Shown: positions 128-30,850 of the stretch, piece by piece
How positions within the stretch are numbered: the stretch's first letter is position 1
How the letters are laid out: each line of letters starts with the position of its first letter
Notes under the pieces: generated by a model
Databases searched by the model: none
Seen by the model: the letters and a program-made list of their open reading frames with translations, nothing else
Told to the model about the DNA's origin: nothing
IMG/VR virus record: IMGVR_UViG_3300034071_000108
Location: 1 to 38,540 of that record
Reading direction: 5' to 3' (one strand)
Length of the DNA: 38,540 bases
From: a virus
Made by a program: the position numbers and the translations under genes

Positions 128-1718
128 CAGTCAATACTGCCGCGCCATTAACTGACAAAGCAAAGTCGTTTGTCCGGTAAACAAAGCCCCATTTGCTGAT
201 AGCGTTACTAGTGTGACCGGCCACGTTAAGGTCTACTTGTCCCACGCCCCCGGTTGTTACACTTAATCCCCTTGCAGCGCTGAAAAGGTATGTCCGCATA
301 ATGTTATTATTTGTTCCGTCAGTAACAGAAGCAGGCACATTTACCACGGCTAGATTACCTACAACACTATCCGCCTCGACAACAAACGTCCCCTCGCTCT
401 GGTTATACCAAGGCGCGAACATCGGCGCGGTGATGGTGCATACGTCAGCGGCGCGTGTTACTTGGCTGGCCACAGTGGGGATATAGCTTGTGGCGAATGT
501 TGCTGTTTCGAGTTGAGCGCCCCAGAGAAAGATGCCGCTTGTGCCGTCGCCTGTTGTGGCAACGCTGTCGGCAACAAATGCGCGAACCAGCACGGAAGAT
601 GCACCCGTTGATGTGAACGTCAACGATACGCGGTAGAAACCGTTTTTAGCGGCAATCACAGTTGCGGATGCGCCAGTAAACGTACCGGCAGCGGCGGCGG
701 CAGTAGTAATTGTTCCATCAACCAGCGAGACTATGACAGACGCATTATTAGCGGCAGACGCGCTATCGCGGACGAGCAGACGAACCCGATTATATTCGCC
801 AATTTTGGCATAAACCGAATAGGTGTAGGTGGCAGCGGCGGCGGTTACAGTTTGCGTTACGCCGGAACTTCCAAGAGACGCAGCGTTGTCAGGAATAATC
901 TTATCCGCATCAGTAGTGCCGTCAGGCGACACCGCAGCGTTGCTGCTAACTGTAGCTACAAAACCTGTCCATGAAACGTCAAACTCCTCAGAGCGCAACA
1001 GCAAATTCACCCGCTGCTCTTCGATCAAGATGCCCTTCGGCTGGAGCGTGACGGGGTCGTAGTCAAAGCGTGGCGGGAACCTGCCGCCGTTGTTGCGCGT
1101 GTAGGTGGTGGCTGTGCTGCCGACTTCAAGCTGTGCGCCCCAGAGGAACAAACCTGAAGTGCCGTCACCTGTGTAGGAAATGGAATTGTCAGCATTTGCC
1201 AACAAAAATGCGGAACCCGTGCCCGCGCTTGCGGTAGCCGTGAATGTAACCGAACAGCGATACCAGCCATTACCTGTGGAAACGATTGCCGCTGTGACCC
1301 CGCTCGTTACTGTCCCTACAGTCCCGTTACTAACATCAAAGAAAGCGTTTCGTATTGTCCCCATAAGGGCGGCAGGAAGTTGAATATCAAACCAACTCCG
1401 CTCCGCTGCCTTAACTGACACACTGAGCGTATATGTAGTGCCAGCCGTGTAATTGGCGCTTTGGCTTGTAAAATGAGTGCTAGACGCAGTCGTGTCCTCA
1501 ACCAATTTGTCAGCCGTAGAAGTGCCGTCAGGCGCAACAGTCGAGTTGGCTGTTATGGTGGTCCGGGCCTTCGTCCAAGCAGCGTTATCAAACTGCTGCG
1601 TCTGCGTAAACAAGTTCACGCTGGCTGGCGTGTTCTGGATCAGGCCATTGCTGCCAACGAACGTGCCTGACGTTGTGCGGGTGAAGTCGAGAAGCTGGTC
1701 GAAGGTATAGTTTGTCAT
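1..1718 (-). CDS. Tail spike/fibre protein B (577 residues, crosses the contig junction)
   Basis: A probable receptor-binding spike. The ATG at 1718 overlaps the stop of the upstream paralogue (ATGA). The frame stays open to base 3 and, on the circle, continues at 38415-38398 to TGA, giving 577 residues. The N-terminus has an LLDFTRTTSGTFVGSNGLI-type segment typical of phage spikes. Two carbohydrate-binding-like beta-sandwich repeats follow, each with an NL..(T/R)(Q/S)..(Q/E)FD..W opening, an APDGT/SPDGT(S/T)D..DK motif, a G(W/F)YR strand and a closing FLWGAQLE. Between them is RFDYDPVTLQPKGILIEEQR. The C-terminal third resembles a LamG/concanavalin-like domain (QSEGTFVVEAD ... NGHIRSIQYYPVRL). 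Domain identities are inferred from motifs. No enzymatic residues are recognised. Confidence 0.85.
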   Translation of the reverse strand, partial: MTNYTFDQLLDFTRTTSGTFVGSNGLIQNTPASVNLFTQTQQFDNAAWTKARTTITANSTVAPDGTSTADKLVEDTTASSTHFTSQSANYTAGTTYTLSVSVKAAERSWFDIQLPAALMGTIRNAFFDVSNGTVGTVTSGVTAAIVSTGNGWYRCSVTFTATASAGTGSAFLLANADNSISYTGDGTSGLFLWGAQLEVGSTATTYTRNNGGRFPPRFDYDPVTLQPKGILIEEQRVNLLLRSEEFDVSWTGFVATVSSNAAVSPDGTTDADKIIPDNAASLGSSGVTQTVTAAAATYTYSVYAKIGEYNRVRLLVRDSASAANNASVIVSLVDGTITTAAAAAGTFTGASATVIAAKNGFYRVSLTFTSTGASSVLVRAFVADSVATTGDGTSGIFLWGAQLETATFATSYIPTVASQVTRAADVCTITAPMFAPWYNQSEGTFVVEADSVVGNLAVVNVPASVTDGTNNNIMRTYLFSAARGLSVTTGGVGQVDLNVAGHTSNAISKWGFVYRTNDFALSVNGAAVLTDTAGTVPTVDRLGVGMLNNINQINGHIRSIQYYPVRLADFQL

Positions 1719-3571
1719 GCGTCGTATATTCCGTTGATGAAATCGAGGCTGAGTGTCGTAATCAGCGGCGGTGCGGTCAGCGCCTGTAGCTGGGCGTCTG
1801 GAAGCCGCGTGTTGAAGTACGCGATTTGGCGGATGTGGCCGTTGAGGAAATTCGATACGAGGATAGCGCCGATACTTAGCTGAGTAAGAGTTGCCAGCGT
1901 GACACTCGTATCTTCTGACGAAAGCGCCCCTCCCGACGCGGTGATAGCCGAGTTTGTTTCATAGGCAAGTCCAGCATTTACGACTTGGCCAGCAGAAATA
2001 GCAGAACCAGCGGTCATCGAAGCCTGAGAGACACCAGCAGTGGTGATGCGGCCCCTAACCGTCGTCGCAGATGAAAATTCAATGCCTATTAAATTACTGC
2101 TTGTGCCGTCACTGGCGGAGATTGCGTAACGTGATGCGGGCGCGGCAGAATCATACGAAGCAACAAACGTCCCCTCGTTCTGGTTATACCAGCTTGAGAA
2201 GTTCGTGCCTGTCATGGTCGCAACGTCTGCGCTGCGTGTTACTTGGCTGGCAACTGTGGGGATGTAGCTGGTGGCGAAGGAGCCGTTCTCAGCCTGAGCG
2301 CCCCAAGCGATAACGGTTCCTGTGCCTGCTACGCTATCTGGCTGAATACGCAGTGAGTTACTGTTCGCAGCGATAACGCCAGCTAAAAGTAGTTTAATCC
2401 GATACCAGCCGTTGCCGTAATTTTCTACGGCTTCAATGGTTCCGCCCGAAGACGCTACGGCGGAAGGAACTCCTCCCGTCCACGTAATTGTAGCTGAGCC
2501 GCGAGTAACAAGGGCGGTAACGTCGCGCAGGAAAAAAAGTGTAGTCCCAGAAGTCCCTGCCTTTAAGAAAACAGAAACCGACTTTGTGCCGTCGCCCGTG
2601 AACGTGGGGCTTTGAGAAACTATGCCACTCGTAGTAGTGGCGGTCAGTGTGTCGGCTGTAGTCGTCCCGTCTGGCGCTACCGTGGTGTTTGTCGTTACGG
2701 TAAGGCTGGATGCGCTCCATGACACTGAAAAGTTTTCGCTCTGAAAACAAATATTCGTCCGCTGCTCTTCAATGAGCAAGCCCTTTGCCGCAAGCGTTAC
2801 AGGGTCATAGTCAAAGCGCGGGCCGTAATATGCCGCTGTGGTTGTGGCGTTGTATGTGCCGGGGACGGTCTGGTAGGTTAATGGTTCGAGTTGTGCGCCC
2901 CAGATGAAGACGGTTTCTGTGCCAGTGGTGGTCCAGTTTTGACCAAAAGTCGCAGATGCTGACGATACGATGTAAATACGAAAATCGTTTGTTAATACCG
3001 CCGTATTGTCAAATACCACAGTGCAGCGATACCAGCCGTCACCAGCAGAAATTATGGACGAGGTGGACTTAGTTCCCGCCGTCCCCACAACACCATTAGC
3101 AATATCAAAATTGGCAAACGCTTGCGCATCTCCAGCGTTAAGCAACTGGATAAAGTTGTGTGTTCCCGCCTTAACGTAAAACGATAATGCATAAGCTGTT
3201 GAAGCTGTCACCGCCGGTTGCTGGCGAATATAGTGAGTGCCAGCGCCAGCGGTGGCGGTCAACGTATCAGCCGTAGACGTACCGTCAGGAGCGACAGTCG
3301 TGTTCGCAGTTACCGTTGTGGTTGTTTTCTGCCATGTCGCGTTCTCAAACGTCTGCGATTGCAGCAGCAAATTCGCCGGAGCGTAAGTAATCCGCCCCGT
3401 GCTATCCACCAGCGTGGCATTGCTGCCGCGTGAGAACGTGACGCGGCTGTCCAAATATGGCTGCAAAAAGTCGAGCGCCATAGCAGGAAACAGTCCGCCA
3501 TTCGACGATAGAGTCGTCGAACTTAGCAGCCCAATAGCTAGACCGTTGCGGACAGGAATACCAAAACTCAT
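1715..3571 (-). CDS. Tail spike/fibre protein A (618 residues), paralogue of spike B
   Basis: A probable virion receptor-binding protein. Around residues 36-66 it has the spike-type N-terminal motif (TFSRGSNATLVDSTGRITY). Two carbohydrate-binding-like repeats follow. The first spans about residues 66-232 (NLLLQSQTFENATW, GWYRCTV, FIWGAQLE). The second spans about 275-432 (NICFQSENFSVSWSA, GWYRIKL, IAWGAQAE), joined by RFDYDPVTLAAKGLLIEEQR. A LamG-like C-terminal domain runs from about 440 to 590 (NEGTFVASYDS ... NGHIRQIAYFNTRLPDAQ). The start overlaps the preceding stop (ATGA). An internal ATG at residue 31 is possible but leaves an awkward gap. It shares domain order and many motifs with the next gene, so the two arose by tandem duplication. 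Function is inferred from architecture. Confidence 0.85.
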   Translation of the reverse strand: MSFGIPVRNGLAIGLLSSTTLSSNGGLFPAMALDFLQPYLDSRVTFSRGSNATLVDSTGRITYAPANLLLQSQTFENATWQKTTTTVTANTTVAPDGTSTADTLTATAGAGTHYIRQQPAVTASTAYALSFYVKAGTHNFIQLLNAGDAQAFANFDIANGVVGTAGTKSTSSIISAGDGWYRCTVVFDNTAVLTNDFRIYIVSSASATFGQNWTTTGTETVFIWGAQLEPLTYQTVPGTYNATTTAAYYGPRFDYDPVTLAAKGLLIEEQRTNICFQSENFSVSWSASSLTVTTNTTVAPDGTTTADTLTATTTSGIVSQSPTFTGDGTKSVSVFLKAGTSGTTLFFLRDVTALVTRGSATITWTGGVPSAVASSGGTIEAVENYGNGWYRIKLLLAGVIAANSNSLRIQPDSVAGTGTVIAWGAQAENGSFATSYIPTVASQVTRSADVATMTGTNFSSWYNQNEGTFVASYDSAAPASRYAISASDGTSSNLIGIEFSSATTVRGRITTAGVSQASMTAGSAISAGQVVNAGLAYETNSAITASGGALSSEDTSVTLATLTQLSIGAILVSNFLNGHIRQIAYFNTRLPDAQLQALTAPPLITTLSLDFINGIYDA

Positions 3572-8595: not shown

Positions 8596-10131
8596 TCAAG
8601 ACCCCATCCATGATGTAGAAGCTCCAGAGGAAGAATACCCGCTTGTGCGGCGCTTGTCAACGCGTCCTAGACGCGGATCGGTAGATGCTACAGGAAACGC
8701 GAACGTGACCGCTATGGCGTCCGCAGCGTCTGGCGATGCTAGGCCGCGCGCCTTCATGTCTTTCTTGCTCTCAAGGAACAGCGTACCCTTGCTGTCAGGC
8801 TTGGTGCGCGGGCTGATGAGGTCGGTTTTCAGGAACCTATCGGTCGGTATATGGCCCGTTTTCAGCCAGTCGCGCATGGCGCCCCACATTTCGGCTCGTT
8901 TGTTGCCCCACATGGTCTGGTTCTTGGCCTTATTGCCGAAGTTCACGCCGCGTATTTTGTACCGCTGCTCTTTCAGCCGGTCTACGACGCCTGCGCCTAG
9001 CCCGCCTTCGTCGATGCAGACCAGCGCAGGCTTAAATTCTTCTATGGCGTCAATGACATGGCCTGCGACTTCCATAGTGTCCGCGCCGCGGTGCCTGCGT
9101 AGCTCCAAAATGTCACGCCCTTGGCGCACAGCGATGACGGTAGCGTCAGCCCCAAAGCGTGCAGGGTCTACGCCGATAACAATCGGCGCTGTAGCGTCTC
9201 TGGCTGGCGTGCGTTTCATGGCGTCATCGACCAAATTGCTGCCAATGAACTGATCGTCGCCTTCTGACGGGAAATTACCGTAGACTTCGACGCTGGCTTG
9301 GTAGCTGTCAGGGCCATATTCGTCGATAATGCGCTGATACAGGTTTTTGTCCGTACCTTCCACATCGCGTGCGTCGATGACGCGTGTCTGCCAGAACGCG
9401 CGCTTGCTGTGGAACGTCTCGTAGAAATATCCAGTGTTCCGCCGCGGGTTGGAAAAGGCCAGATGAAAGCGATGCGGCGTATTTTCCGTGAAGAAACCGT
9501 CCGATACCGACCATATAGAGTCTGGAATACCGCTGGCTTCGTCAAATATCAGCATCACACCGTCGAAGTTATGCACCCCTGCGTATGCGTCAGGGTTTTC
9601 TTCCGACCACAGCCGGCCTTCAACGGACCAATAGCGCGTGCCTTTCTTCAGGTCGCGCTCGACCAGTTCCGTCAGCCACTTGGCTGGCATGATGCGTGTG
9701 GCGGCTATCTCAAACCAGTGGCTGTTGAGCGACATCGCCAGCCATTTGGTGATTTCTGCCCATGTTACCGACCGCAACTGCGCCTCAGAGTTAGCCGACA
9801 CGATGGTCGTGCTGCCGATCCTTGACGACAGCATCCATATGACCAGCCAACTGACTAGGGCCGACTTGCCGATACCGCGTCCTGACGCAATCGCCAGCCG
9901 CGCTGTGTCGAAGTCCACCTTACCGTTGTTCTGCTTGATGTGGTCGCGCAAATCGGCAAGCACCTGACGCTGCCATTTACGCGGTCCGGGGAAATGTTCC
10001 AGCGGCGTACCCTGCTGCCCCCACGGGAATGTATATAATACGAACGCTAGTGGGTCATCCTTCAGTGATGGGGACCACAGCCGCGCCATTAACTCCATCT
10101 CGTCTTGGGCTGAGTATATCGGTGCTTGCAT
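8596..10131 (-). CDS. terL: Terminase large subunit (ATPase-nuclease, 511 residues)
   Basis: The motor that pumps DNA into the prohead and cuts it. The ATPase domain has a Walker A at residues 82-90 (SGRGIGKS), a Walker B at 192-198 (VMLIFDE, Asp197/Glu198) and the coupling-like motif near FSNPRRNTGYF. The RNase H-like nuclease domain shows GVDPARFGADAT (Asp322), CIDEGGLGAGVVD (Asp374) and SPDAADAIAV (Asp468/Asp471), the three acidic clusters of the family. The length is normal. It overlaps the 3' end of the small terminase gene by 77 bases. Packaging type cannot be read directly; the P22-like head genes suggest headful packaging. Confidence 0.97.
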   Translation of the reverse strand: MQAPIYSAQDEMELMARLWSPSLKDDPLAFVLYTFPWGQQGTPLEHFPGPRKWQRQVLADLRDHIKQNNGKVDFDTARLAIASGRGIGKSALVSWLVIWMLSSRIGSTTIVSANSEAQLRSVTWAEITKWLAMSLNSHWFEIAATRIMPAKWLTELVERDLKKGTRYWSVEGRLWSEENPDAYAGVHNFDGVMLIFDEASGIPDSIWSVSDGFFTENTPHRFHLAFSNPRRNTGYFYETFHSKRAFWQTRVIDARDVEGTDKNLYQRIIDEYGPDSYQASVEVYGNFPSEGDDQFIGSNLVDDAMKRTPARDATAPIVIGVDPARFGADATVIAVRQGRDILELRRHRGADTMEVAGHVIDAIEEFKPALVCIDEGGLGAGVVDRLKEQRYKIRGVNFGNKAKNQTMWGNKRAEMWGAMRDWLKTGHIPTDRFLKTDLISPRTKPDSKGTLFLESKKDMKARGLASPDAADAIAVTFAFPVASTDPRLGRVDKRRTSGYSSSGASTSWMGS

Positions 10132-10564
10132 GACTGCGGTTATCCTCTAGCTGCGCTGCGGGTGTCACGTCCGTGTACAGCCCTTCGATGACGCGCGACT
10201 GTGCTTTTTCCAGCGCGCCTGTAATGCTTATCTGTTGGTCGATGTTTACGTCGATCTGCTGCTTGGCTACCCAGCCGTGTTGATGCTTGAGTATCTCCAG
10301 CGCAGCCTTGCTGTCACCAGTTAGCGCCGCTTCGTGCATCGTCTTGGCCGCAGTGTACTCGCCGTCAGCGCGGCCTTTGATCTCAGCCATCTCGACCAGC
10401 GGGTCTGCGTCGGCCAACACGCGGAACTGCCGCGGGGTCAATCCAGCCGCCATCGCCAGACTGTCACCCTTAAGCCCGTACTTTGCGGCCTTATAGATTG
10501 CCTCTAGCCGCGCCTCGGTCGCTTGCACCCGCTCAGGTGTGAATGGCAGTGAGTAGAAAGTCAT
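10055..10564 (-). CDS. terS: Terminase small subunit (169 residues from the preferred start)
   Basis: The DNA-recognition subunit of the packaging motor. It has an N-terminal helical region, then a helix-turn-helix-like segment (GLKGDSLAMAAGLTPRQFRVL), a central oligomerisation helix (GEYTAAKTMHEAALTGDSKAALEILKHQHGW) and a C-terminal tail likely contacting TerL. Longer starts at 10588 (MQHTIV) and 10660 are open, but neither has a visible ribosome-binding site. I prefer the ATG at 10564 because a promoter-like element (TATAGT at 10577-10572) ends 7 bases before it, implying leaderless translation. The gene overlaps terL by 77 bases. The start is the uncertain part. Confidence 0.85.
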   Translation of the reverse strand: MTFYSLPFTPERVQATEARLEAIYKAAKYGLKGDSLAMAAGLTPRQFRVLADADPLVEMAEIKGRADGEYTAAKTMHEAALTGDSKAALEILKHQHGWVAKQQIDVNIDQQISITGALEKAQSRVIEGLYTDVTPAAQLEDNRSHASTDILSPRRDGVNGAAVVPITEG

Positions 10565-10571
10565 TGGGCGT

Positions 10572-10600
10572 ACTATAGTGTGTTGCATTCTGATTTGCAA
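10572..10600 (-). promoter_or_regulatory. Candidate promoter for the late (packaging/structural/lysis) unit
   Basis: On the minus strand TTGCAA (10600-10595), a 17-base spacer and TATAGT (10577-10572) form a sigma70-like promoter. Predicted transcription would begin at about 10565-10564, right at the preferred ATG of the small terminase, so the message would be leaderless. No other strong promoter is visible upstream of the late genes. Matches are four of six at -35 and five of six at -10, so the call is reasonable but unproven. Confidence 0.45.
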
Positions 10601-10686
10601 AAAAAAATAAAAATTGTTTGCGATCCTACCCGTGACAGACACACACGCCGTCGGCCCCACCCCACCCCCTTCAAGAATTTTACTAC

Positions 10687-10728
10687 CTGCATTTTAATAG
10701 CTGCATTTTAATGCCTGCATTTAGCTGC
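10687..10728. repeat. Three tandem copies of a 14-bp CTGCATTT repeat
   Basis: Units CTGCATTTTAATAG, CTGCATTTTAATGC and CTGCATTTAGCTGC start at 10687, 10701 and 10715, an exact 14-base period with decay in the last unit. The array lies in the non-coding region upstream of the late promoter. Such short tandem arrays can bind a protein or mark a packaging or replication site. No function is assigned. Confidence 0.8.
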
Positions 10729-10847
10729 GCGAATTGCGTGCTGCGTTTGACGCGCTGGAATTAGAAATGGCCTTTTCACTTTACGCTAACGTCAAGCTAA
10801 GAAAAACACATTGGCTGGCTGGCTATGCTGCACTGCAACATATTGCG

Positions 10848-10974
10848 TAGGGACGTCAAGTTGTCATGCGTTTACAAGTTGGCGATGAGTTGAGTTGACG
10901 TGGCCAGTTTGCGTGGCCAATTAGGGCGACCCTCTAACTGTGTTAGTCAACTAGGGAACGTCAAATTGTCATCG
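10848..10974. repeat. Pair of direct repeats with GGGACGTCAA core
   Basis: Two 23-base elements at 10848-10870 and 10952-10974 share the order TAGGGA(A)CGTCAA, then TTGTCAT, then CG, with few differences. They carry the same ACGTC core as the denser array at 11104-11250, so they look like outlying copies of the same binding site. A further TTGACGTGG lies between them near 10895. Confidence 0.65.
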
Positions 10975-10984
10975 AAAAACAGGT

Positions 10985-11060
10985 GACTCTTATAATACGT
11001 ATATTCTAACCATATAGGTTAATATTATTATATCTTCACCTTCTTATCTAATTAATGACA
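10985..11060. other. AT-rich block with a small palindrome, possible unwinding element
   Basis: A strongly A/T-rich stretch in an otherwise GC-balanced genome. It contains TATAAT at 10991-10996 (preceded by TTGTCA at 10966-10971 with a long 19-base spacer) and the interrupted palindrome TAACC-ATATA-GGTTA at 11007-11021. It lies between the two repeat groups of the intergenic region. It could be a DNA-unwinding element of an origin or an upstream promoter/operator. No gene is supported here. The remainder of the 10565-11338 non-coding interval not listed separately shows no further feature. Confidence 0.45.
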
Positions 11061-11103
11061 ATATGACTGTCTTTTGCATAAATCCCGCGCATTCAAGCCA
11101 TTT

Positions 11104-11250
11104 TTTGGGACGTCATTTGGCCCGCTTTTCATGACTTCCCAAATAACGTTTTTGACGTCCCGCCGAGCGCCGATATTCGCGCGCCAGTCGCCGGTTGCCA
11201 TTTGGGACGCCATTTGGACGTCATTTGGAAAAGCCAAATGACGTCCCAAA
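11104..11250. repeat. Iteron-like array of a 17-bp GACGTC-centred site in both orientations
   Basis: The consensus is TTTGGGACGTCATTTGG. Perfect copies lie at 11104-11120 (plus) and 11234-11250 (minus). A one-mismatch copy is at 11201-11217 (plus). Shorter or diverged copies are at 11131-11143 (minus, ATGACTTCCCAAA), 11153-11161 (minus, TGACGTCCC) and 11216-11228 (plus). Six sites in 147 bases just upstream of the early promoter indicate a multi-site binding region for a phage or host protein, either replication initiator or transcription regulator. No initiator or repressor gene is recognised, so the partner is unknown. Confidence 0.75.
11216..11246. repeat. Perfect 13-bp inverted repeat upstream of the early promoter
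   Basis: GGACGTCATTTGG at 11216-11228 and CCAAATGACGTCC at 11234-11246 are perfect reverse complements separated by AAAAG. It is formed by two facing copies of the 17-bp iteron. It ends 32 bases before the -35 box, a position suited to an activator or looping regulator, and could also extrude as a cruciform. Confidence 0.75.
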
Positions 11251-11278
11251 TTTATTTCATCTGCAACACATTTTGTTG

Positions 11279-11307
11279 TTGACACTATAATTTGAGGGTA
11301 ATATAAG
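11279..11307 (+). promoter_or_regulatory. Strong sigma70-type early promoter
   Basis: TTGACA (11279-11284, six of six), a 17-base spacer and TATAAG (11302-11307, five of six) make the best promoter in the window. Transcription would begin at about 11314, some 25 bases before the first early gene. A GGAG ribosome-binding site follows at 11327-11330. Since no phage RNA polymerase is encoded, host polymerase must start infection, and this is the likely entry point. Confidence 0.8.
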
Positions 11308-11338
11308 AGGGCATCAACAACGCAATGGAGTGAGTAAC

Positions 11339-11563
11339 ATGGCACGTAAATTTAACCCTTATCCCGTCACCAATCACGGCAAGCGCGACGAGCGTTACCA
11401 GATTAGTTTAGAATATTGCGGATATGAACATCCGATGTTCACGGCTCGCTTTTGTGATGATGAGCTAATCGGACGTAGCCGCTTTTATGCAAGCGCCGTG
11501 ATGTTGGCATCGGGACACAACGCGCGGCGCAATGGCGCGATGATTATTGAAGCTGCCGCATGA
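11339..11563 (+). CDS. Early protein 1, unknown (74 residues)
   Basis: First gene of the early operon. I choose the ATG at 11339 because GGAG lies 8 bases upstream; a GTG at 11330 would overlap that site. The protein starts MARKFNPYPVTNHGKRDERY, has a mixed-charge central part with ISLEYCGYEHPMFTARF and a helical C-terminus (FYASAVMLASGHNARRNGA). It has no membrane segment or recognised domain. Being first behind the strongest promoter, it is a candidate host-takeover or regulatory protein, but this is inference only. The stop overlaps the next ATG (ATGA). Confidence 0.75.
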   Translation: MARKFNPYPVTNHGKRDERYQISLEYCGYEHPMFTARFCDDELIGRSRFYASAVMLASGHNARRNGAMIIEAAA

Positions 11564-11649
11564 CCCGCGCTGCAATCCAGAACCTAGCGTTCGCGGTGTA
11601 TATCATCGCGGCGCTAACCCTTGACCACCTACTATTCGGAGTAAATTGA
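11560..11649 (+). CDS. Hydrophobic micropeptide (29 residues)
   Basis: Tiny frame with sequence beginning MTRAAIQNLAFAVYIIAALT and ending DHLLFGVN. Residues 6-26 form one predicted membrane helix. The ATG overlaps the stop of the upstream gene, and its own stop ends one base before the next ATG, so it fits the tight operon spacing exactly. No Shine-Dalgarno is visible, consistent with translation by coupling. Function unknown. Small early membrane peptides in phages often alter the host envelope or block superinfection, but nothing here proves that. Confidence 0.5.
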   Translation: MTRAAIQNLAFAVYIIAALTLDHLLFGVN

Positions 11650-11650
11650 T

Positions 11651-11932
11651 ATGACATACCCAATTACCGACATCATCCGCGACGCACAAGGTAGCCTAGG
11701 TTACGCCGTCATGACGCTGCAAGCATCCGATCATTCCCGCATGGCGTCTGTTGCGCGTGACCTATCCGAAGTTGAAAGCGTCATAGCCAAACTTGTCGCA
11801 GCGCTGGAAGGTTACGAAACATGGACCGGCGCGCTGGCAAATGCCGGCGAGATGACGCCCGATGCATGGGTCGAATTAGACAAGTTGTATGAAAAAGCCT
11901 GTTCGGCTCTTGACCAAGCAAAAGGGGCCTAA
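11651..11932 (+). CDS. Early protein, unknown helical (93 residues)
   Basis: Starts MTYPITDIIRDAQGSLGYAV. It is largely alpha-helical with a central SEVESVIAKLVAALEGYETW and ends ALDQAKGA. The last bases of the gene (AAAAGGGG) look like a relic of a coding-embedded ribosome-binding site, as also occurs in the 12435-12716 gene, which ends with the same AKGA. The two are of equal length (93 residues) and may be diverged duplicates. GGAG at 11638-11641 serves as its ribosome-binding site. No known domain. Confidence 0.75.
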   Translation: MTYPITDIIRDAQGSLGYAVMTLQASDHSRMASVARDLSEVESVIAKLVAALEGYETWTGALANAGEMTPDAWVELDKLYEKACSALDQAKGA

Positions 11933-11942
11933 CCCCATGTTA

Positions 11943-11966
11943 GCCGCGCGGCTCACACTGCGCGGC
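11943..11966 (+). other. GC-rich hairpin between early genes
   Basis: GCCGCGC (11943-11949) pairs with GCGCGGC (11960-11966) around a 10-base loop, just after the stop of the 93-residue gene. There is no U-tract, so it is not a normal terminator. It could protect the 3' end of a processed transcript or tune expression of the following gene. Confidence 0.4.
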
Positions 11967-12013
11967 ATTCATGGCGCTAGTGCCAACAACAGTAAAATAA
12001 AGGATAGTTCAAT

Positions 12014-12277
12014 ATGACAGATACAACGTGCAACGGATGGCGCAATGCCGCCACATGGACAGTCGGCCTATGGTTCGGTGACCATTGGGCAGAATTGGCG
12101 GAGGATGGCTTTGACTTCTCCCCTGAATATCTGCGCGATATGGTCGAAGAATATGTTTACGATCTGATCGGCAAGGATAGCACTACCGCCGGTTTCATAT
12201 GGGATATGCTTGACCTTAACGTCGTCGATTGGGACGCATTGCGCGATCATTACGCGCCAACAGGAGCAGACGCATGA
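12014..12277 (+). CDS. DUF7249-like early phage protein (87 residues)
   Basis: Its N-terminus CNGWRNAATWTVGLWFGD matches the (Y)NGW.N..TW.V.LW.D signature of a family of small acidic phage proteins (DUF7249-like). The rest is acidic and helical (SPEYLRDMVEEYVYDLI, FIWDMLDLNVVDWDALRDHY), without membrane segments. The family is widespread in early regions of phages and has no established function that I know of. The acidic character would suit a DNA-mimic or inhibitor, but that is speculation. AAGGA lies 9 bases upstream of the ATG, and the stop overlaps the next ATG. Confidence 0.75.
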   Translation: MTDTTCNGWRNAATWTVGLWFGDHWAELAEDGFDFSPEYLRDMVEEYVYDLIGKDSTTAGFIWDMLDLNVVDWDALRDHYAPTGADA

Positions 12278-12435
12278 CGGACGCAATCAAACGGAACACA
12301 ATCGTAATGGTGCAGGAGGCGTTCTTTGACGTTTGCGACCTACTGCACGATGCGGAAGGCGAGGCGCGGGACGCTCTGGCGGACTTAAAGGACAAGCTAG
12401 CGACGATTGAGGCGCGGCTCGAGGAGGCAGCATAA
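12274..12435 (+). CDS. Small acidic helical early protein (53 residues)
   Basis: I start this at ATG 12274, which overlaps the upstream stop (ATGA) and has AGGAG about 8 bases before it. An upstream in-frame start at 12229 would overlap the previous gene for no reason. The protein begins MTDAIKRNTIVMVQEAFFDV and ends in a heptad-like helix (EARDALADLKDKLATIEARL) suggestive of a short coiled coil. Function unknown. The stop TAA shares its last base with the next ATG. Confidence 0.7.
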   Translation: MTDAIKRNTIVMVQEAFFDVCDLLHDAEGEARDALADLKDKLATIEARLEEAA

Positions 12436-12716
12436 TGAGAAACGACCTAACACCCTTTAGAACAGTGCGTGAGTTACTAGCTAACCGCGACTGCGTCCTG
12501 ATGGGCAACGCCGTGAACACGGAGGGCAAGCTATACGACGACAGTGTGGAGAACCTCACCGCAATCTTGGCGATGCAGGACAGTTACAGCGAGATGCTGG
12601 CTGCGCTGGAAGACGCATCCGCATATATAGACAAATGCAGCTACGTTGACCGCGCAAAATGGCTGGCAGTCCGCGACACTATCGAAACTGCAATCACAAA
12701 AGCAAAAGGAGCCTGA
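12435..12716 (+). CDS. Early protein, unknown helical (93 residues)
   Basis: Begins MRNDLTPFRTVRELLANRDC, with a helical C-terminal half (YSEMLAALEDASAYIDKCSY, VRDTIETAITKAKGA). The final codons GCA AAA GGA GCC contain the AAAAGGAG ribosome-binding site of the next gene, an economical arrangement. Shares length and the C-terminal (L)AALE ... AKGA layout with the gene at 11651-11932. No recognised domain. GAGGAGG upstream supports the start at 12435. Confidence 0.75.
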   Translation: MRNDLTPFRTVRELLANRDCVLMGNAVNTEGKLYDDSVENLTAILAMQDSYSEMLAALEDASAYIDKCSYVDRAKWLAVRDTIETAITKAKGA

Positions 12717-12719
12717 CCA

Positions 12720-12926
12720 ATGACACAAGACCGCACATACTTTCGGATGCTATCCGATACCGCATTGGCCGACGCCGCGCGCTATTGCGACAATGACCTA
12801 GCCCTAGTGCTAGGTGAGCGCCTGAGCGCGCTGACAGACGCACAAGAGGAGCTAGAAGCGTTACAGATACTGTATGACCGCCTAGTCGCTGAAAATAACG
12901 CCCTACGGGACGATATGGCCGAATGA
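12720..12926 (+). CDS. Small coiled-coil early protein (68 residues)
   Basis: Starts MTQDRTYFRMLSDTALADAA, then CDNDLALVLGERLSALTDAQ and a leucine/glutamate-rich helix (EELEALQILYDRLVAENNAL) that looks like a short coiled coil. Acidic, soluble, no known domain. AAAAGGAG at about 12703-12710, inside the preceding gene, is its ribosome-binding site. Its stop overlaps the next ATG (ATGA). Confidence 0.75.
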   Translation: MTQDRTYFRMLSDTALADAARYCDNDLALVLGERLSALTDAQEELEALQILYDRLVAENNALRDDMAE

Positions 12927-12982
12927 CGGCGCTGCTTTGTGGAGCCGCGCTGTTCCTATTAACTTTAATGCTGGAGGATTAA
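12923..12982 (+). CDS. Possible hydrophobic micropeptide (19 residues)
   Basis: A 19-residue frame (MTALLCGAALFLLTLMLED) whose ATG overlaps the upstream stop and whose stop is 1 base before the next ATG. Its 3' end contains the GGAGG site (12973-12977) of the next gene. Nearly all of it would be a single membrane helix. It could be a real micropeptide or just a coupling leader for the membrane protein that follows. Confidence 0.35.
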   Translation: MTALLCGAALFLLTLMLED

Positions 12983-12983
12983 A

Positions 12984-13211
12984 ATGACACACGAACAAAT
13001 AGCAATCATCACGCTCTTAGCGATAGAAGCCCTGACACTTTACGCCCTATGGCTGACGCATCAGTCAGGCGAATGGTGGCGCAAGGCATGGCTGCGCGAT
13101 AGTGCCGAGCTGCTGCACTGGAAGCGCAACGCTGTGCAGCGCGACCCCAAGACAGGCCGCTACGTCAAGAAAGACAAGCGCCCCAAGCCCACCACAACAA
13201 TAGAACTGTAA
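12984..13211 (+). CDS. Small membrane protein, basic tail (75 residues)
   Basis: The N-terminus has one membrane helix (residues 5-25, QIAIITLLAIEALTLYALWL). A tryptophan-rich interface segment (HQSGEWWRKAWLRD) and a basic cytoplasmic-type tail (RDPKTGRYVKKDKRPK) follow. GGAGG lies 7 bases before the ATG. It follows the hydrophobic 19-residue frame, so the early operon has up to three membrane proteins. Function unknown; a membrane-anchored takeover or exclusion factor is possible. Confidence 0.75.
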   Translation: MTHEQIAIITLLAIEALTLYALWLTHQSGEWWRKAWLRDSAELLHWKRNAVQRDPKTGRYVKKDKRPKPTTTIEL

Positions 13212-13224
13212 AGGACACCGAACC

Positions 13225-13470
13225 ATGTTTGAGATTAAAGTGATTGATCCGTCTATTGATGATGACGAAAAGGACATTGACCCTGAACTAGACCTGCTAC
13301 GCGTCGCCGCGCGCGCCATCGAAAAGCACGAGCGCCTCAAGGCCGAACTGCGGCAACATGAGCAACATTTGTCGCGTGTCTGCCAGACCTACGGCCAGCA
13401 CTACCGCGTTTGGGGCTATAGGCCGGAGCATCTGCGCCAAGCCTGCGTCGCACGGGGGCTGTTGAAATGA
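13225..13470 (+). CDS. Small helical early protein (81 residues)
   Basis: Acidic N-terminus (MFEIKVIDPSIDDDEKDIDP) followed by a charged helix (LRVAARAIEKHERLKAELRQ) and a C-terminal segment HYRVWGYRPEHLRQACVARG. Likely soluble, helical. No domain I can name. AAGGA lies 9 bases upstream of the ATG, and the gene ends within an ATGA overlap with the next. Role unknown. Confidence 0.7.
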   Translation: MFEIKVIDPSIDDDEKDIDPELDLLRVAARAIEKHERLKAELRQHEQHLSRVCQTYGQHYRVWGYRPEHLRQACVARGLLK

Positions 13471-13649
13471 GGCCGATGATTTACCCAATGGGGGCGCTAG
13501 AGGTTGGCGAGGTTGGCACCATGCCAGCCGCCAAGCGCGGCGATGCCAAGCGCACCAGCCGCAACGTCTCGCAATACGGCATCAGGAACGGGAAGGCATT
13601 TAAGTGCCGCACTGTTGAGGGCGTCACATTCATCACAAGGTTAAGATAA
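13467..13649 (+). CDS. Small basic DNA-binding-like protein 1 (60 residues)
   Basis: Matches a pattern of small phage proteins in which a VGE(V/S)G.MP ... K..R.S...S.(Y)G.RNGK.FK.R..EG ends in a short arginine-containing strand. Here: ALEVGEVGTMPAAKRGDAKR, SQYGIRNGKAFKCRTVEG, then FITRLR. The basic helix and hairpin suggest nucleic-acid binding. The next gene is a paralogue with the same TRLR end. Starts by ATGA overlap, and its stop shares a base with the next ATG. Family function is not established. Confidence 0.7.
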   Translation: MRPMIYPMGALEVGEVGTMPAAKRGDAKRTSRNVSQYGIRNGKAFKCRTVEGVTFITRLR

Positions 13650-13849
13650 TGATATTCGGTTCTGACACACGCAAATCTAAGCACGGCATAAACGCAATGG
13701 CTGTTGGTGAGGTGCGTGTGTTCGACACGCCAACCGAACGCGACAAAGACCTCCTACGCCGCGCAGCACACAACCAGAACGAGCGGACAGAGCGCCGCTA
13801 CATGACGCGCTCCAAGGGTGACAAGCTGACAGTTACCCGACTGCGGTAA
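13649..13849 (+). CDS. Small basic DNA-binding-like protein 2 (66 residues)
   Basis: Last gene of the early operon. AMAVGEVRVFDTPTERDKDL, then a basic helix AAHNQNERTERRYMTRSKGD and KLTVTRLR, following the same layout as the preceding gene (VGEV ... basic helix ... TRLR). This is the VGE.. / R..R.W-type fold common in phage early regions, probably DNA- or RNA-binding. It ends 8 bases before the A-tract of the operon terminator. Confidence 0.7.
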   Translation: MIFGSDTRKSKHGINAMAVGEVRVFDTPTERDKDLLRRAAHNQNERTERRYMTRSKGDKLTVTRLR

Positions 13850-13857
13850 CAGACAAT

Positions 13858-13900
13858 AAAAAACCCCTGCTTGTGGAGTGAGGCACACAAGCAGGGGTTT
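13858..13900. terminator. Strong bidirectional intrinsic terminator
   Basis: A perfect 15-bp stem (AAACCCCTGCTTGTG at 13861-13875 with its complement at 13886-13900) and a 10-base loop. The minus-strand transcript ends in a run of U (complement of AAAAAA at 13858-13863), and the plus-strand transcript in UUUAAU. It lies exactly between the convergent ends of the early operon (13849) and the replication operon (13958), so it serves both. Confidence 0.95.
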
Positions 13901-13957: not shown

Positions 13958-16306
13958 TCAATTCTTGCCTAAGTTCGACATCGTGCTTGGCTTCGGCAAT
14001 TCCTCTGCCATGCGGCGCAAGTCTGCCTTGTTGTATTTCTTAACCAAATCTGGCGCGACAAAGATATGCTTCTTGTTCACATAATCTTTCGAGTTGAGCC
14101 GTCCCATATCAACCCAGCCAGCTTCCTTCAGCGCGTGTAGCAGCGCCGCCTGCGGTATCTTCACGCCCGCAGGGACGTTGACCGCCAGCGCATCACAGAT
14201 GCGATGGAAAGGCCCACCGATGACACCACTCGCAAACACGCCCGACTTCACCCGCATCATGTCCACAAGGTAGCTTTCCGCTACGCTCATGCCATGCTCG
14301 ACCATGTTCAGCTTCCATTCGGTCACTGGCGGCGCAGCGGCAGGGTTAAACGCCGACACGTCGCGCTGGTGCAGCCAAGCGGCACACTTCTCATAGCCGC
14401 CATTCTCATACCAGCCCCACAGCGCCTTGGCCGCTGGCGCTGACATACGCGGCGCGCGCGTCCACACGCAGAACCAACGCCTGTCCTGCGTCGGCAGCGT
14501 GATAGGCAGCGGATCGTTCGTGTAGGCAACCACCATCAGGCGGTTGACCAACTCGTAAGGGTGCATACCCTTGCGGTTGACCGACAGCGTTTCAGGCGGC
14601 GCAGCAATCAGCGGCTTTAGCTTGTTAGCCATAGCGCGACGTTCGCGCGCCTCTGGCTCTTTTAGCTCGTTCAGGATGACAACCTCAGCCTCAAGCGCAT
14701 AACCCCACTGGCTGTCCAACCCGCCGGCCTCAATGACTGACCGATTGCGCCAATGCTTACCGCCAAGCGCCCACAGGAACGGCTGGAACATACTGTCCTT
14801 ACCCGCGCCTTCATCGCCGCCTATCAGAATGGCATGGTTAATCTTGATGTTAGGGTTCTGTATCTTGAACGCCATAGCGTCAAGGATATGGTCTAACTCG
14901 ACATCGTCCGACACCAGATTGCGGCAATGCTGTAGCCAAGGCTCAACGTCATGGTCTGCAATCTTATCGCTGCCCGACACGTCGGGGCGTGCGTCCGTCC
15001 AGCGGTTGCCGTAGACCAGCCCGTCACGCGTCACCAGCACGTCATCGCCAGCGGCAAACGTCACGGCAGCCAATGCAGGCGCGCCGCGATCTTGCCGGCG
15101 CTCGTCAAAATAGATGGACGATTGTATGCGCTGCGTCTTCTTATGGATGGAGCGGCAGTCAACGTGACGGAACAGGGCGTTGAAGACGTTGCGGGCTATC
15201 TCTTGACGCGTCACCATGTCAAAATAGCAGTCATCGGACTGTATATAAGCGAAACGCTCGAACCACTCGCTTTGTTCCAGCCGTCCGGCTTCTTTCTTTT
15301 CGACCTCACGCACACGCGCTGCGGCTTCATCGGGGAAGGCTTCGGTTGGCGCTATCTTGTCATACATCGACGCCATGCGCTCCGCGATTAGTTCGTCCCG
15401 CAAGCCCGGCGTTACCTTCGGGCCACCTTCATTGGCTACCCAATCAAGAAAGGTGCGGCTGTCTATGTATTGGCAATGCCCATGATAGCAGCAGAACGAA
15501 CGATCCAGCGGCTTGTAGCGCGCTTCGATCATGCCGTCGCTGTGTTGGTCATGGTTAGGGCAGACGATGCCGCACCAGCCGTCAGCGTTAGGATGGCTAA
15601 GGACTAAGTTGTTGTCCGCAAGCCATGTCAGGACGTTGTCAAGGCCAGTGTCGCGCAACTGCACGGCTTTATATTCGGCTGTGTCGCCTTCCTCTGGCGT
15701 AACGTCCAGCGCCTCGCAGATTTCGTCCAGCGTATACTCACGCTCAGGGTGGAACTCGACCAGCCGTGCAGGAAAGTTATTGCGCCCGCGCTTCAGGTTG
15801 ACGCTGCCGGGGATACGACAGTTGCGGACGGCGTTAGTCGCGCCGGGATCAGTGTAGCCCGCATCGGCAATCGCTTTGATGGCAGCGCAAAAGTCACCCT
15901 TGCGTGGCTGTTCGCTGAACGCGTAGCCCCACTGGAACGAACCTTCGCTGGTTTCCAGCACCCATGTCGGTTTAAGCGGCGGCTCTTTCGACTTCGTGCC
16001 AACGTCATCCAGCATCATGAACAGCACATACTCGACGTTGCTGGCCTTGGCGGCAGGCTTGCCGTCTACAAAGCGGTCAACGATGAACGAGCCTGTGTTG
16101 ACATACCATGCCTCGCCTTCTTTCATGCGGGTCTTTTCTGGCAGGAACGCAGGGAACGTCGCCTTCGGCACGCCGTCTGCGTGATATATCAGGTTGCCGT
16201 CGCTGTCGTGCTGCGGCTTCTGCCGCACAACAAGGGCTGTCTCGCCGACGTTGTCCGTCGCCAAGCCAGTTATATATTCTATGAATTTCTTGCGATCCTC
16301 ACTCAT
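13958..16306 (-). CDS. Primase fused to SF3-type helicase (782 residues)
   Basis: Opens the fork and makes primers. ATG 16306 is preceded by AAGGAG; an earlier in-frame start at 16354 would overlap the polymerase gene. Residues 1-200 resemble an archaeo-eukaryotic-type primase, with acidic MMLDDVG (Asp100/Asp101), a TSEGSFQWGYAF strand and CRIPGSVNLK (Arg164-Lys172). A zinc-ribbon-like cluster follows at Cys245, Cys249, His252, Cys272/273, His275, Cys278. The C-terminal helicase has Walker A GGDEGAGKDS (496-505), VVILNE (542-547) as Walker B, sensor VVAYTN (592-597) and an arginine pair (609-610), as in DUF5906/VapE-like phage helicases. Asn replaces the usual first acidic residue of Walker B. 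It is the last gene of the replication operon. Confidence 0.88.
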   Translation of the reverse strand: MSEDRKKFIEYITGLATDNVGETALVVRQKPQHDSDGNLIYHADGVPKATFPAFLPEKTRMKEGEAWYVNTGSFIVDRFVDGKPAAKASNVEYVLFMMLDDVGTKSKEPPLKPTWVLETSEGSFQWGYAFSEQPRKGDFCAAIKAIADAGYTDPGATNAVRNCRIPGSVNLKRGRNNFPARLVEFHPEREYTLDEICEALDVTPEEGDTAEYKAVQLRDTGLDNVLTWLADNNLVLSHPNADGWCGIVCPNHDQHSDGMIEARYKPLDRSFCCYHGHCQYIDSRTFLDWVANEGGPKVTPGLRDELIAERMASMYDKIAPTEAFPDEAAARVREVEKKEAGRLEQSEWFERFAYIQSDDCYFDMVTRQEIARNVFNALFRHVDCRSIHKKTQRIQSSIYFDERRQDRGAPALAAVTFAAGDDVLVTRDGLVYGNRWTDARPDVSGSDKIADHDVEPWLQHCRNLVSDDVELDHILDAMAFKIQNPNIKINHAILIGGDEGAGKDSMFQPFLWALGGKHWRNRSVIEAGGLDSQWGYALEAEVVILNELKEPEARERRAMANKLKPLIAAPPETLSVNRKGMHPYELVNRLMVVAYTNDPLPITLPTQDRRWFCVWTRAPRMSAPAAKALWGWYENGGYEKCAAWLHQRDVSAFNPAAAPPVTEWKLNMVEHGMSVAESYLVDMMRVKSGVFASGVIGGPFHRICDALAVNVPAGVKIPQAALLHALKEAGWVDMGRLNSKDYVNKKHIFVAPDLVKKYNKADLRRMAEELPKPSTMSNLGKN

Positions 16307-16316
16307 CGCTTGCTCC

Positions 16317-18272
16317 TTATTTGCCGTATCGTTCCATAATTGCCACTTCTGCATTCAGGGGTAGCCCCGACGCCCAAGGTGGCGGCTCACACATAATCTG
16401 CACCAGCCGCGCTGCGGCGGCCTCTGCGTCATCTTCTGGCACTTCCAAGACGATTTCATCGTGGATGTGCAAAACTACATCATCTAACTGACGCAAGGCG
16501 TGGCGCAGCAAGTCGTTAGCGACAGCCTGCGTGATATTTTCACACGCCAGACCGCGCCATAGCCGCGCCCTAGGCCATTCCTTAGCGTCTGCGGCTGGCT
16601 TCCATGAAGCCTTGGCATAGGTCAGGTCGCCCTTCTCATCGAAGCGGGCGAAAGGATAACATAACACACGGCCAGACGGAAGGGCATACCAAAGATGCAG
16701 TCCATCAAATAAATATGTGACGCGGCCAATGGTGAACTCGCGGCCCTTGTTCCGCATGGCGCGCATATAGGTTTCCTCAAGACCAGACCAGTAAGGCACA
16801 GCCCACTTGTTAGCCCTGCGCCATGCGTCCACCATGCGCTTTGCGTCGCTCTCCGACATCATCAGGCCGTAGATGCGGCCCATGCTGGCGAAGGCTCCTA
16901 CGCCGCCGGCGAAGCCGCACGCCAACTCTTGAACCTTACCGATCTGGCGCTGGTCTTTGTCAACGTCGTTATAACCGACATGGAAGGTCGCCATAGCGTT
17001 GTGCTTGTATACGTCCTCACCCTTGGCAAAGATGTCCAGCTTGCTCGCGCCAAAGGTGCTGTTGGACGCCCACGGCGTAACCCGCGCTTCGATAGCGGCC
17101 CAGTCAGCGACGACCAGCCGCTTGCCTTTGTCGGCCATTAGCGCAGGGCGTAGCATACCCTTCAGCACGTCCGTCACACGGCGACCATGTTCAGGAACGA
17201 TGCTGTGGCCGCGCACCATAGCCTGCCGCACTAATGCAGGGTCGGCGGCGCACTTGCGGGGGAAGTTATGGACCTGAAGCCCAAATGATGAAGCGCGTCC
17301 AGTAGCACTGCCTCCAGCAAATACGAACGCTCCTCTAACGCGAAAATCTTCCTCATCAGCAAGCGCCGCTGCACGTTGGAACTTCGCAACGGACGATGCC
17401 CACAGATCGTCCGCGCACTGGATGACTTCTGCAACTTCCGCCGGGACTTCATCTGGGTTCTCCTCTGCCAACACGAGTAAGTTGGCGCGCACGTTCTTGT
17501 CAATGGACAGCTTCTCGACGCCATCCTTCATCACGGTCGCCAGTTCAAGCGCCTGTGGCCCTACCCTAGCTAACACCCAATCCTTCATCTTCGGGCTGCG
17601 AACGGACTTAATCTCGCCGTGCGTCACCTCTGCGACGATGGATTGTATCTCAGTCAGTTCAGTTTCAGCGTAACGCACAGCCGCCTGCGCCAGCGGCCTG
17701 TCAAGCAGGACGCCGCGGTCGTTGATGCGCTCGTTGGTGTGATAGTCGGCCAACTCATCAGCCGACAGCGGACGCTGCGCCTGCGCGATAGCGCGCATGG
17801 CCCTGACATCTTGTTCGCAATAATCGACCATCTCCTGCATCAGCGCCGCGTCTTCACGGAATGTGCCGTCGGGCTGCGGGATGGACAGCGCACGGATTAG
17901 CTGACTGCCGCGATGGTCTTTCTTCATGGTAGCGCCAGCGAAGCGGCCCACATCCTCAAGGCTGCCCGGCGCACAGTTGGCGCGGGCCTGCGCTGCGGTG
18001 CAGTAGAACTGCTCCAGCTTGAAGTCTACCTGAAGGACATACCAGAATATCAGGCGCTCGAACGCTGCGTTGTGCGCGTATACCAGCCCCTTGTGGTCAC
18101 GGACGGCTTGCGGGAAAGGCTCACTAGGGAGCCACGTCCGCACGTCTTCGTCATCAAATGCGTAGGACATACACAGCACGTCGGTGCTGGCGTCCTGCGC
18201 GTAATTATACACGCCGCGGCTGCGAAGGTCGCAACGGCTGCGCGTCTCAAAGTCGACCCATAATTTAGACAT
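16317..18272 (-). CDS. Family A DNA polymerase with 3'-5' exonuclease (651 residues)
   Basis: The replicative polymerase. Exonuclease motifs: VDFET (Asp7, Glu9), YAHNAAFER (Asn68 region) and YCEQDV (Tyr151, Asp155). Polymerase motifs: TGR(A)SS at about 324-329, motif A VVADWAAIEARV (Asp390, Glu395), motif B DQRQIGKVQELACGFAGGVG (about 440-459), and motif C LHIHDE (Asp605, Glu606). No 5' nuclease domain. This polymerase type is the one found beside DUF2800/DUF2815-like genes in many phages. The start has only a weak GAAGAG/AGTGAG site upstream. The stop lies 10 bases before the primase-helicase ATG, with that gene's ribosome-binding site in the gap. Confidence 0.95.
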   Translation of the reverse strand: MSKLWVDFETRSRCDLRSRGVYNYAQDASTDVLCMSYAFDDEDVRTWLPSEPFPQAVRDHKGLVYAHNAAFERLIFWYVLQVDFKLEQFYCTAAQARANCAPGSLEDVGRFAGATMKKDHRGSQLIRALSIPQPDGTFREDAALMQEMVDYCEQDVRAMRAIAQAQRPLSADELADYHTNERINDRGVLLDRPLAQAAVRYAETELTEIQSIVAEVTHGEIKSVRSPKMKDWVLARVGPQALELATVMKDGVEKLSIDKNVRANLLVLAEENPDEVPAEVAEVIQCADDLWASSVAKFQRAAALADEEDFRVRGAFVFAGGSATGRASSFGLQVHNFPRKCAADPALVRQAMVRGHSIVPEHGRRVTDVLKGMLRPALMADKGKRLVVADWAAIEARVTPWASNSTFGASKLDIFAKGEDVYKHNAMATFHVGYNDVDKDQRQIGKVQELACGFAGGVGAFASMGRIYGLMMSESDAKRMVDAWRRANKWAVPYWSGLEETYMRAMRNKGREFTIGRVTYLFDGLHLWYALPSGRVLCYPFARFDEKGDLTYAKASWKPAADAKEWPRARLWRGLACENITQAVANDLLRHALRQLDDVVLHIHDEIVLEVPEDDAEAAAARLVQIMCEPPPWASGLPLNAEVAIMERYGK

Positions 18273-29852: not shown

Positions 29853-30308
29853 TTAATCCCCGATCCACTTGCTGTAGTATACCTCTACAGGTTCCATTTT
29901 CAAAAACTCAAACAGCCGTGAAGCGTCTTTATGAAGTTTGGACCCGTAAAACATACGATGTACGCCTCGCCTTTTAGCTTCTTTTTCAACTAAACGAAAG
30001 AGCTTTACGCCACTAAATCCACCTCGCACGTCTGGATGCGTCCAAAAGATGTCCATCGTCAGCGTTAGGCACGTTTGATAGTGAAGACCCGGCGCGATAA
30101 AACCAATGAAATACCCTACTAAACGGCCAGTTTCGCGCAGCGTAACGAGCATCAGTTGCCCTGCGTCGTCGCGCGCTTCGTAAATATCATACTGCGGCGC
30201 AAGCGGCACCTTATCTTTGTTTAGGGCTAACTCTTCCCAATGATGGTCGTAACACTCCATTAACTCCGGTAGGCAATCCTTGTAAGGCTCGACTTGTGCG
30301 GTGATCAT
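29853..30308 (-). CDS. GNAT-family N-acetyltransferase (151 residues)
   Basis: An acetyl-CoA-dependent acyltransferase. The GNAT core is seen as AGQLMLVTLRETGRLVGYFI (strand pair), LTLTMDIFWTHPDVRGGFSG (strand 4 and the CoA pyrophosphate loop, R-G-G-F-S-G) and KLFRLVEKEAKRRGVHRMFY (helix 3, strand 5). C-terminal FEFLKMEPVEVYYSKW matches the usual last strand. Substrate unknown. Phage GNATs of this type are frequent next to virion genes. Starts after AGGAG, sharing a base with the oxygenase stop (TAATG). Confidence 0.85.
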   Translation of the reverse strand: MITAQVEPYKDCLPELMECYDHHWEELALNKDKVPLAPQYDIYEARDDAGQLMLVTLRETGRLVGYFIGFIAPGLHYQTCLTLTMDIFWTHPDVRGGFSGVKLFRLVEKEAKRRGVHRMFYGSKLHKDASRLFEFLKMEPVEVYYSKWIGD

Positions 30309-30850
30309 TATGCGCTCCTGATGTCTACAATGCAGACTATCCTATCATCTGCGCTGTTATTTACAACAGAATGTGTTACGCGATTGTTGACCCACCAGAT
30401 TTCGCCGGCGCGGAAGTTGACTGTTTCGCCGCCGCTGTGAAACAGCGCGCCGGGGAGCGACTGAAGCGCAATCTGATAGCGGGTGTAGAACTCTGCTGGA
30501 GCGCCGCCGTCAACGTGCGGCGTAATCTGGCCGCCGGGGGGCAACTTAGTAATGATGCAGCGGCCAAGCTGGACGCCGTTGACACGGTGGATCAGGTCCA
30601 GCACCATACGGCGCAGCGACGGTAGCCGCGTCCACGCAGGATATTCAACCGTCTGGATGTCATTAACGACGCCGTTCGGGTCATCAGGGATTTCGTTAAA
30701 CCATAGCCAAATGTCGCTAACGTCGGCGTGAGCGGTATCAGGGTGGATGGTGCGAAGGGTATTCTGGTCCCACAAGTCGGGCTGCGTAGCCAACTCCCGT
30801 AAGACTGAAACTGTATTTAGTCCGTCAGCAATGCGTAAGAAATTCTGCAT
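30308..30850 (-). CDS. 2OG-Fe(II) oxygenase, aspartyl/asparaginyl hydroxylase-like (180 residues)
   Basis: A jelly-roll dioxygenase. The iron triad is PHVDGG (His112, Asp114) and THSVVNNS (His160), and the 2-oxoglutarate contact is Arg170 in DDRIVCIVDIR. FRAGEIWWVNNRVTHSV is the typical aspartyl/asparaginyl beta-hydroxylase core, and QLGRCIITKLPPGGQITPH the preceding strand. Complete active site, so likely functional. The substrate could be a virion or host protein. It is translationally coupled to the GNAT gene on one side and a small structural gene on the other. Confidence 0.88.
   Translation of the reverse strand: MQNFLRIADGLNTVSVLRELATQPDLWDQNTLRTIHPDTAHADVSDIWLWFNEIPDDPNGVVNDIQTVEYPAWTRLPSLRRMVLDLIHRVNGVQLGRCIITKLPPGGQITPHVDGGAPAEFYTRYQIALQSLPGALFHSGGETVNFRAGEIWWVNNRVTHSVVNNSADDRIVCIVDIRSA

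Follow-up and report, generated by a model that had tools for sequence, protein, structure and literature searches.

The window considered here, a stretch of 38,540 bp that makes up one IMG/VR virus record, carries an array of short repeated sites that, judged from sequence, very probably constitutes an iteron replication origin recognized by the predicted C-terminal winged helix of the phage's own primase-helicase, with the wing of that domain and the array switching together among relatives. The gene at 13958-16354 is on this evidence the most likely initiator.

A repeat array beside the small terminase gene

The sites of the array and their immediate neighbors are these:

11234-11251, minus strand: iteron 1, a perfect TTTGGGACGTCATTTGG, facing iteron 2
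11211-11228, plus strand: iteron 2, two mismatches, overlapping iteron 3 at an 11-bp offset
11200-11217, plus strand: iteron 3, one mismatch to TTTGGGACGTCATTTGG
11149-11165, minus strand: iteron 4, a part copy from the weight matrix, plus strand reading TGACGTCCCG
11128-11144, minus strand: iteron 5, a part copy from the weight matrix, plus strand reading ATGACTTCCCAAAT
11103-11120, plus strand: iteron 6, a perfect TTTGGGACGTCATTTGG
10954-10972, plus strand: composite site GGGAACGTCAAATTGTCAT, including one extra A
10850-10867, plus strand: composite site GGGACGTCAAGTTGTCAT, about 105 bp from the other composite
10960-11099: AT-rich block between the iteron groups, a putative unwinding element, peaking at 78% A+T at 11000-11059
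11279-11307, plus strand: early promoter TTGACA-17 bp-TATAAG, read from sequence, adjoining the array
10055-10588, minus strand: small terminase gene (terS), the constant left neighbor of the array in relatives

An earlier note, made from the letters alone, had described a GACGTC-centered array at this place, and the array is real. Two perfect copies of TTTGGGACGTCATTTGG, one with one mismatch, and one with two mismatches all lie inside 11104-11250; the chance expectation is 0.03 matches, and none of 100 shuffles reaches four. A weight matrix of 90 sites, trained only on other phages of the same motif class with the window excluded, recovers the weaker copies at 11128-11144 and 11149-11165 together with sites at 10846-10862 and 10951-10967; when the whole window is searched, 10846-11251 holds eight of the 13 best matches, the eight sites of the array, and no second cluster appears elsewhere in the 38,540 bp. 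The facing iteron pair forms the 13-bp inverted repeat that had been claimed, at 11216-11246, and the position beside an AT-rich block and an early promoter likewise stands. The related elements placed at 10848 and 10952 are also present, although the positions were off by two bases (10850-10867 and 10954-10972), and each is a composite of two half-overlapping sites. Rfam gave no match, and sequenced phages searched at the DNA level with 10600-13900 gave none either.

A query with the primase-helicase (13958-16354, minus strand) brought up 80 relatives; 66 records including the window contain the intergenic region upstream of terS, and nearly all of these 66 have an array in it. The layout is shared: around an AT-rich block there are sites at about -700 to -500 from terS and composites, spaced by about 100 bp, at about -450 to -250; a 60-bp block of 70-82% A+T lies among the iterons at the matching place in 49 of 49 loci tested. 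The sequence of the array differs, dividing some 65 related freshwater phages into several classes:

Class A, ATGACGTCCC: 15 records, the class of the window phage
Class B, ATGACCCAGA: 9 records
Class C, ATGACCTACC: 3 records
Class D, ATAGCCTAGA or AAC: 31 records
Class E, ATGACAACTTGAC: 4 records
Unclassed arrays: 4 records

Class-specific letters occupy matching alignment positions, for example after CAAAT/TAAAT near column 340. When all viral contigs were scanned for GGGACGTCATTTGG, 44 stretches resulted, and clusters of at least four sites are confined to this phage family, every time beside terS. The sequenced phage DSL-LC05, whose terminase is related, carries a dense GACCCACTGGGT array at the same place (L085:3600-4130); its annotated primase/polymerase differs in C-terminal sequence, although the array sits beside terS. 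Two distant relatives, L104 (14750-15310) and L098 (upstream of terS), have in common another array motif, CCTAAACCGCC.

Of 54 non-redundant loci, 24 have a perfect DnaA box, TTATCCACA, in the 1 kb next to terS, and the other 835 kb of these loci contain no copy; the window itself has none. The cumulative GC-skew minimum, which the earlier note looked for near 11 kb, lies instead at about 30 kb, with none at the array, but every operon here biases skew, and it is uninformative about origin position.

Covariation of the array with the primase-helicase wing

The earlier note recognized no initiator gene. There is now a candidate, the primase-helicase, since the array covaries with its wing:

13958-16354, minus strand: primase-helicase, proposed initiator, with RepB_primase PF16793 and DUF5906 PF19263
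14003-14239, minus strand: C-terminal winged-helix domain, residues about 706-784, from an AlphaFold2 model
14120-14152, minus strand: helix 3, residues 735-745, almost invariant across motif classes
14072-14095, minus strand: wing loop, residues 754-761 (N754, K756, Y758), the stretch that tracks array sequence

This single protein of 798 aa matches RepB_primase (E=1.7e-5) and DUF5906 (2.9e-9) and falls in a PHROG annotated as DNA primase; in place of a bacterial-type Toprim primase domain, Pfam gives RepB_primase. A full-length AlphaFold2 model was too poor for use. The model of residues 672-798 has a pLDDT of 77, with a core near 90, and predicts two helices followed by a beta hairpin, whose loop (754-761) contains the tracking residues. 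The best Foldseek matches are mostly winged-helix DNA-binding proteins (SarA, HsmR, PadR, replication terminator protein), all weak (best E=0.04), and a PDB sequence search with the C-terminal profile gave no meaningful match.

Array classes were assigned from the DNA alone. Among the proteins tested, a set in which late structural and tail genes are missing for most relatives, only the primase-helicase has columns that clearly follow class: normalized mutual information is 0.69, 0.61, and 0.54 near its C-terminus, at N754, K756, and the positions following to about 758, and does not exceed 0.47 in other sense-strand genes. Trees of the portal, terminase, polymerase, exonuclease, SNF2 helicase, and early genes fit the classes poorly, and no repressor gene tracking the motif, as a stoperator or operator array would have, was found among the tested genes. 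Two de novo ORF clusters with high mutual information were set aside as antisense ORFs over the primase 3' end. Gene presence or absence was also rejected as the cause of class, no cluster fitting one class both exclusively and completely. The small basic early protein e8 was discarded as a binder as well (21 class changes on its tree; normalized mutual information at most 0.28 with either alignment), and e9 is found in too few relatives for a class-tracking test; the suggestion that the two basic proteins at 13467-13849 are the partners is not supported. These two proteins resemble one another and both end in ...TRLR, and e8 (PHROG 28399) has relatives in all 66 records, where it is sometimes duplicated.

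Within the primase-helicase the signal is confined to a short stretch. Trees of residues 70-250, 250-450, and 450-700 require 21, 19, and 15 class changes; toward the C-terminus the count falls to 12 (700-735), 6 (736-775), and 4 (749-760) and rises again to 16 (775-798), where shuffled classes average about 21.7, so that residues 70-250 do no better than shuffled ones. Array distance and wing distance remain correlated given the distance of residues 70-700 (partial Mantel r=0.63, p=0.0005). When phages of different classes, with primases 91-99% identical apart from the wing, are compared in 15 phylogenetically independent contrasts, 14 show a joint switch of wing and array, and the remaining one is a mixed-array pair. 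The signal is thus limited to the wing and weakens once more on the way to the array, a pattern that simple linkage does not account for.

The wing residues follow class closely: N-S-K in classes A and E (15/15), A/H-S/C-V/I in class B (7/7), G-S-K in class C (3/3), and G-S-T/V/S in class D (22/24, the exceptions being L049 and L060). Both have the wing ACVDH, as does L046, and in each of these three phages the array is mixed B/D. A two-residue rule, designed for close relatives only, fits 47 of 49 loci. Counted without regard to class, the sites that go with each residue pair are:

N/K: GAC.GT.CCC
G/TSV: AGC.CT.AGA
A or H/VTSI: GAC.CC.AGA
G/K: GAC.CT.ACC

With the rule fixed beforehand, all 13 classifiable arrays among held-out loci were predicted (11 scored by script as >80% identical, plus L111 and L206), and a held-out phage with a new hybrid wing, GSKAY, carries nine copies of a hybrid motif, ATAGCCTACC. 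Among relatives at 70% identity the rule looks right for L111, L125/L127, and L134 and fails or is uncertain for L104, L098, and L130. It is broken by a 7.4-kb contig, L229, which combines the window's array with a B-type wing (HSVEFPT); this contig stands outside the held-out count by the redundancy filter, since its array is the window's. From 3034 to its end, array included, it is 97.5% identical to the window, and the junction lies at 2300-3040 around e8, which is duplicated there, so that the contig may be either an assembly chimera or a real recombinant.

A candidate origin and other readings of the array

The reading of the array as an iteron origin is strongly supported by its conserved place with an AT-rich block, by the DnaA box in about half of the relatives, and by its covariation with the primase. 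An iteron origin consists of repeats read by a self-encoded initiator; here there are eight sites, and their recognition by the phage's own protein is what the covariation suggests. The primase-helicase would bind the iterons directly, using the winged-helix domain at its C-terminus: helix 3, nearly invariant, would contact the shared half-site (A-T-R-R-C), and the wing loop would read the variable half. Residue 754 would set bases 6-7 (N giving GT, G giving CT, A or H giving CC), and residue 756 the next bases (K giving CC or ACC; T, S, or V giving AGA or AA). Bound to the left and right of the AT-rich block, the protein would load there as helicase rings, melt the DNA, and prime synthesis, in many relatives probably together with host DnaA. 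A switch of specificity between close relatives would come about when the wing is exchanged or mutated together with the whole array.

The array might instead be mainly an operator through which the primase-helicase or another protein controls divergent early and late promoters, replication starting elsewhere. Its place, with the early promoter (11279-11307) on one flank and the leftward late operon on the other, would suit such a role, as would the spread of the sites over about 400 bp with composites about 105 bp apart, and autoregulation by initiators is common and could add to an origin function. The protein that tracks the array is nonetheless the primase-helicase and no repressor, and the AT-rich block that separates the sites is an origin feature, as is the DnaA box of relatives, which leaves an operator as the main function unlikely. 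That some other phage protein, with its gene close to the array, is the real binder and the primase wing is only linked to it by recombination is more doubtful still. The distance from the primase 3' end to the array is only about 2.7-5 kb and many early genes differ between phages; between wing and array, however, tracking is lost, already at the primase's own last residues and in the adjacent e8 (16 and 21 changes), and no gene cluster between the primase and terS is exclusive to one class and present in all its members.

Proteins of the pRN1 type likewise have primase, helicase, and winged-helix domains, and a stem-loop downstream of the replication gene, the kind of element put forward for pRN1 and for BIP-1 of Bordetella (PMC4234260), could be what is recognized here, with the array serving another use. 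A strong candidate does lie 3' of the primase gene, a perfect 15-bp stem-loop with A- and T-runs at 13861-13900 (z=-4.0). It stands between the convergent e9 and primase genes, its A and T flanks resemble those of a two-way terminator, which it probably is, and it accounts for none of the covariation between wing and array; as the recognized element it is very improbable. Least credible is a host transcription factor that reads the motif, the classes differing by the host infected. Among 84,980 genomes no prophage was found apart from one MAG contig, which leaves room for such a factor. Yet primases with N-termini 98-99% identical belong to different classes, class follows two residues of a phage protein, and phages of differing classes co-occur within the same samples (3300032296, 3300042465).

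Relation to known systems and meaning for the phage family

Iteron origins and type-specific initiators are known from P4, SaPI, lambdoid O proteins, and geminivirus Rep. Satellite phage P4 alpha, according to PMC4234260 (citing Ziegelin and Lanka 1995, Yeo et al. 2002), combines primase, helicase, and a winged helix that binds short origin repeats in one protein, and the window's protein similarly joins primase and helicase in one polypeptide with a predicted C-terminal winged helix. The P4 primase is of the Toprim type in that same text, whereas a RepB_primase match is found here, and the protein may therefore work as P4 alpha does while not belonging to the P4 alpha type. Further, only one array is seen in the window phage, unlike P4, and no description of wing-swapped specificity classes was found for P4 alpha. 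In SaPI Rep and SCCmec Cch2 a C-terminal domain recognizes an iteron origin, and the primases of SaPIs belong to the AEP family (PMC7581432); repeats of both orientations occur in SaPI origins (PMC9894130). The SaPI origin lies directly downstream of rep, in contrast to an array about 2.7 kb from the gene's 3' end and beside terS, and the window phage, unlike SaPI, is full-size with a P22-like portal and head. Elsewhere in the window, two adjacent long minus-strand ORFs (3-1718 and 1715-3571), whose products resemble each other, look like a duplicated gene for a tail or particle-surface protein, and an acetyltransferase-like protein and a PHROG 32420 protein are encoded at 29853-30850 within the structural gene block.

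The pRN1 ORF904 and the primase of Bordetella phage BPP-1/BIP-1 share with the window's protein the union of primase, helicase, and winged-helix domains, the last of these predicted here, and BPP-1/BIP-1 also resembles the window phage in its replication genes, which include DNA polymerase, exonuclease, and helicase. According to the proposal in the pRN1 paper, phage proteins of this primase-SF3-winged-helix kind, such as that of BIP-1, recognize a stem-loop (PMC4234260); the evidence here favors iterons, and argues against stem-loop rather than iteron origins for such phage proteins. Among the lambdoid O proteins (lambda O, P22 gp18, phage L gp18) origin specificity varies, as do the iterons bound (PMC8022706), but these initiators are only 15-25% identical with iterons inside the gene, whereas the primases here are 91-99% identical outside the wing. 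Geminiviruses have iterons at conserved places whose sequences differ and which interact with the cognate Rep (PMC12548392); these are, by contrast, ssDNA plant viruses with rolling-circle replication and an unrelated protein. No description of near-identical phage primase-helicases with co-exchanged wing and origin array was found in the open-licence literature.

From sequence alone, a group of abundant uncultured phages can thus be given a proposed origin and initiator, along with a recognition code that can be read. Near-identical initiators of differing specificity form a natural set for dissecting how a wing chooses DNA, and they raise the question of why the origin changes repeatedly among close phage relatives. 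One tentative answer is that this freshwater family is split into replication-compatibility types, in which wing and array are co-exchanged as lock and key through a two-residue code, and that co-infecting phages, satellites, or decoy origins drive the diversification by competing. Were that so, rivals would otherwise use or titrate the same initiator; extra copies of the lambda origin in a cell block infection (PMC4488673), and decoys are therefore a plausible pressure for origin change.
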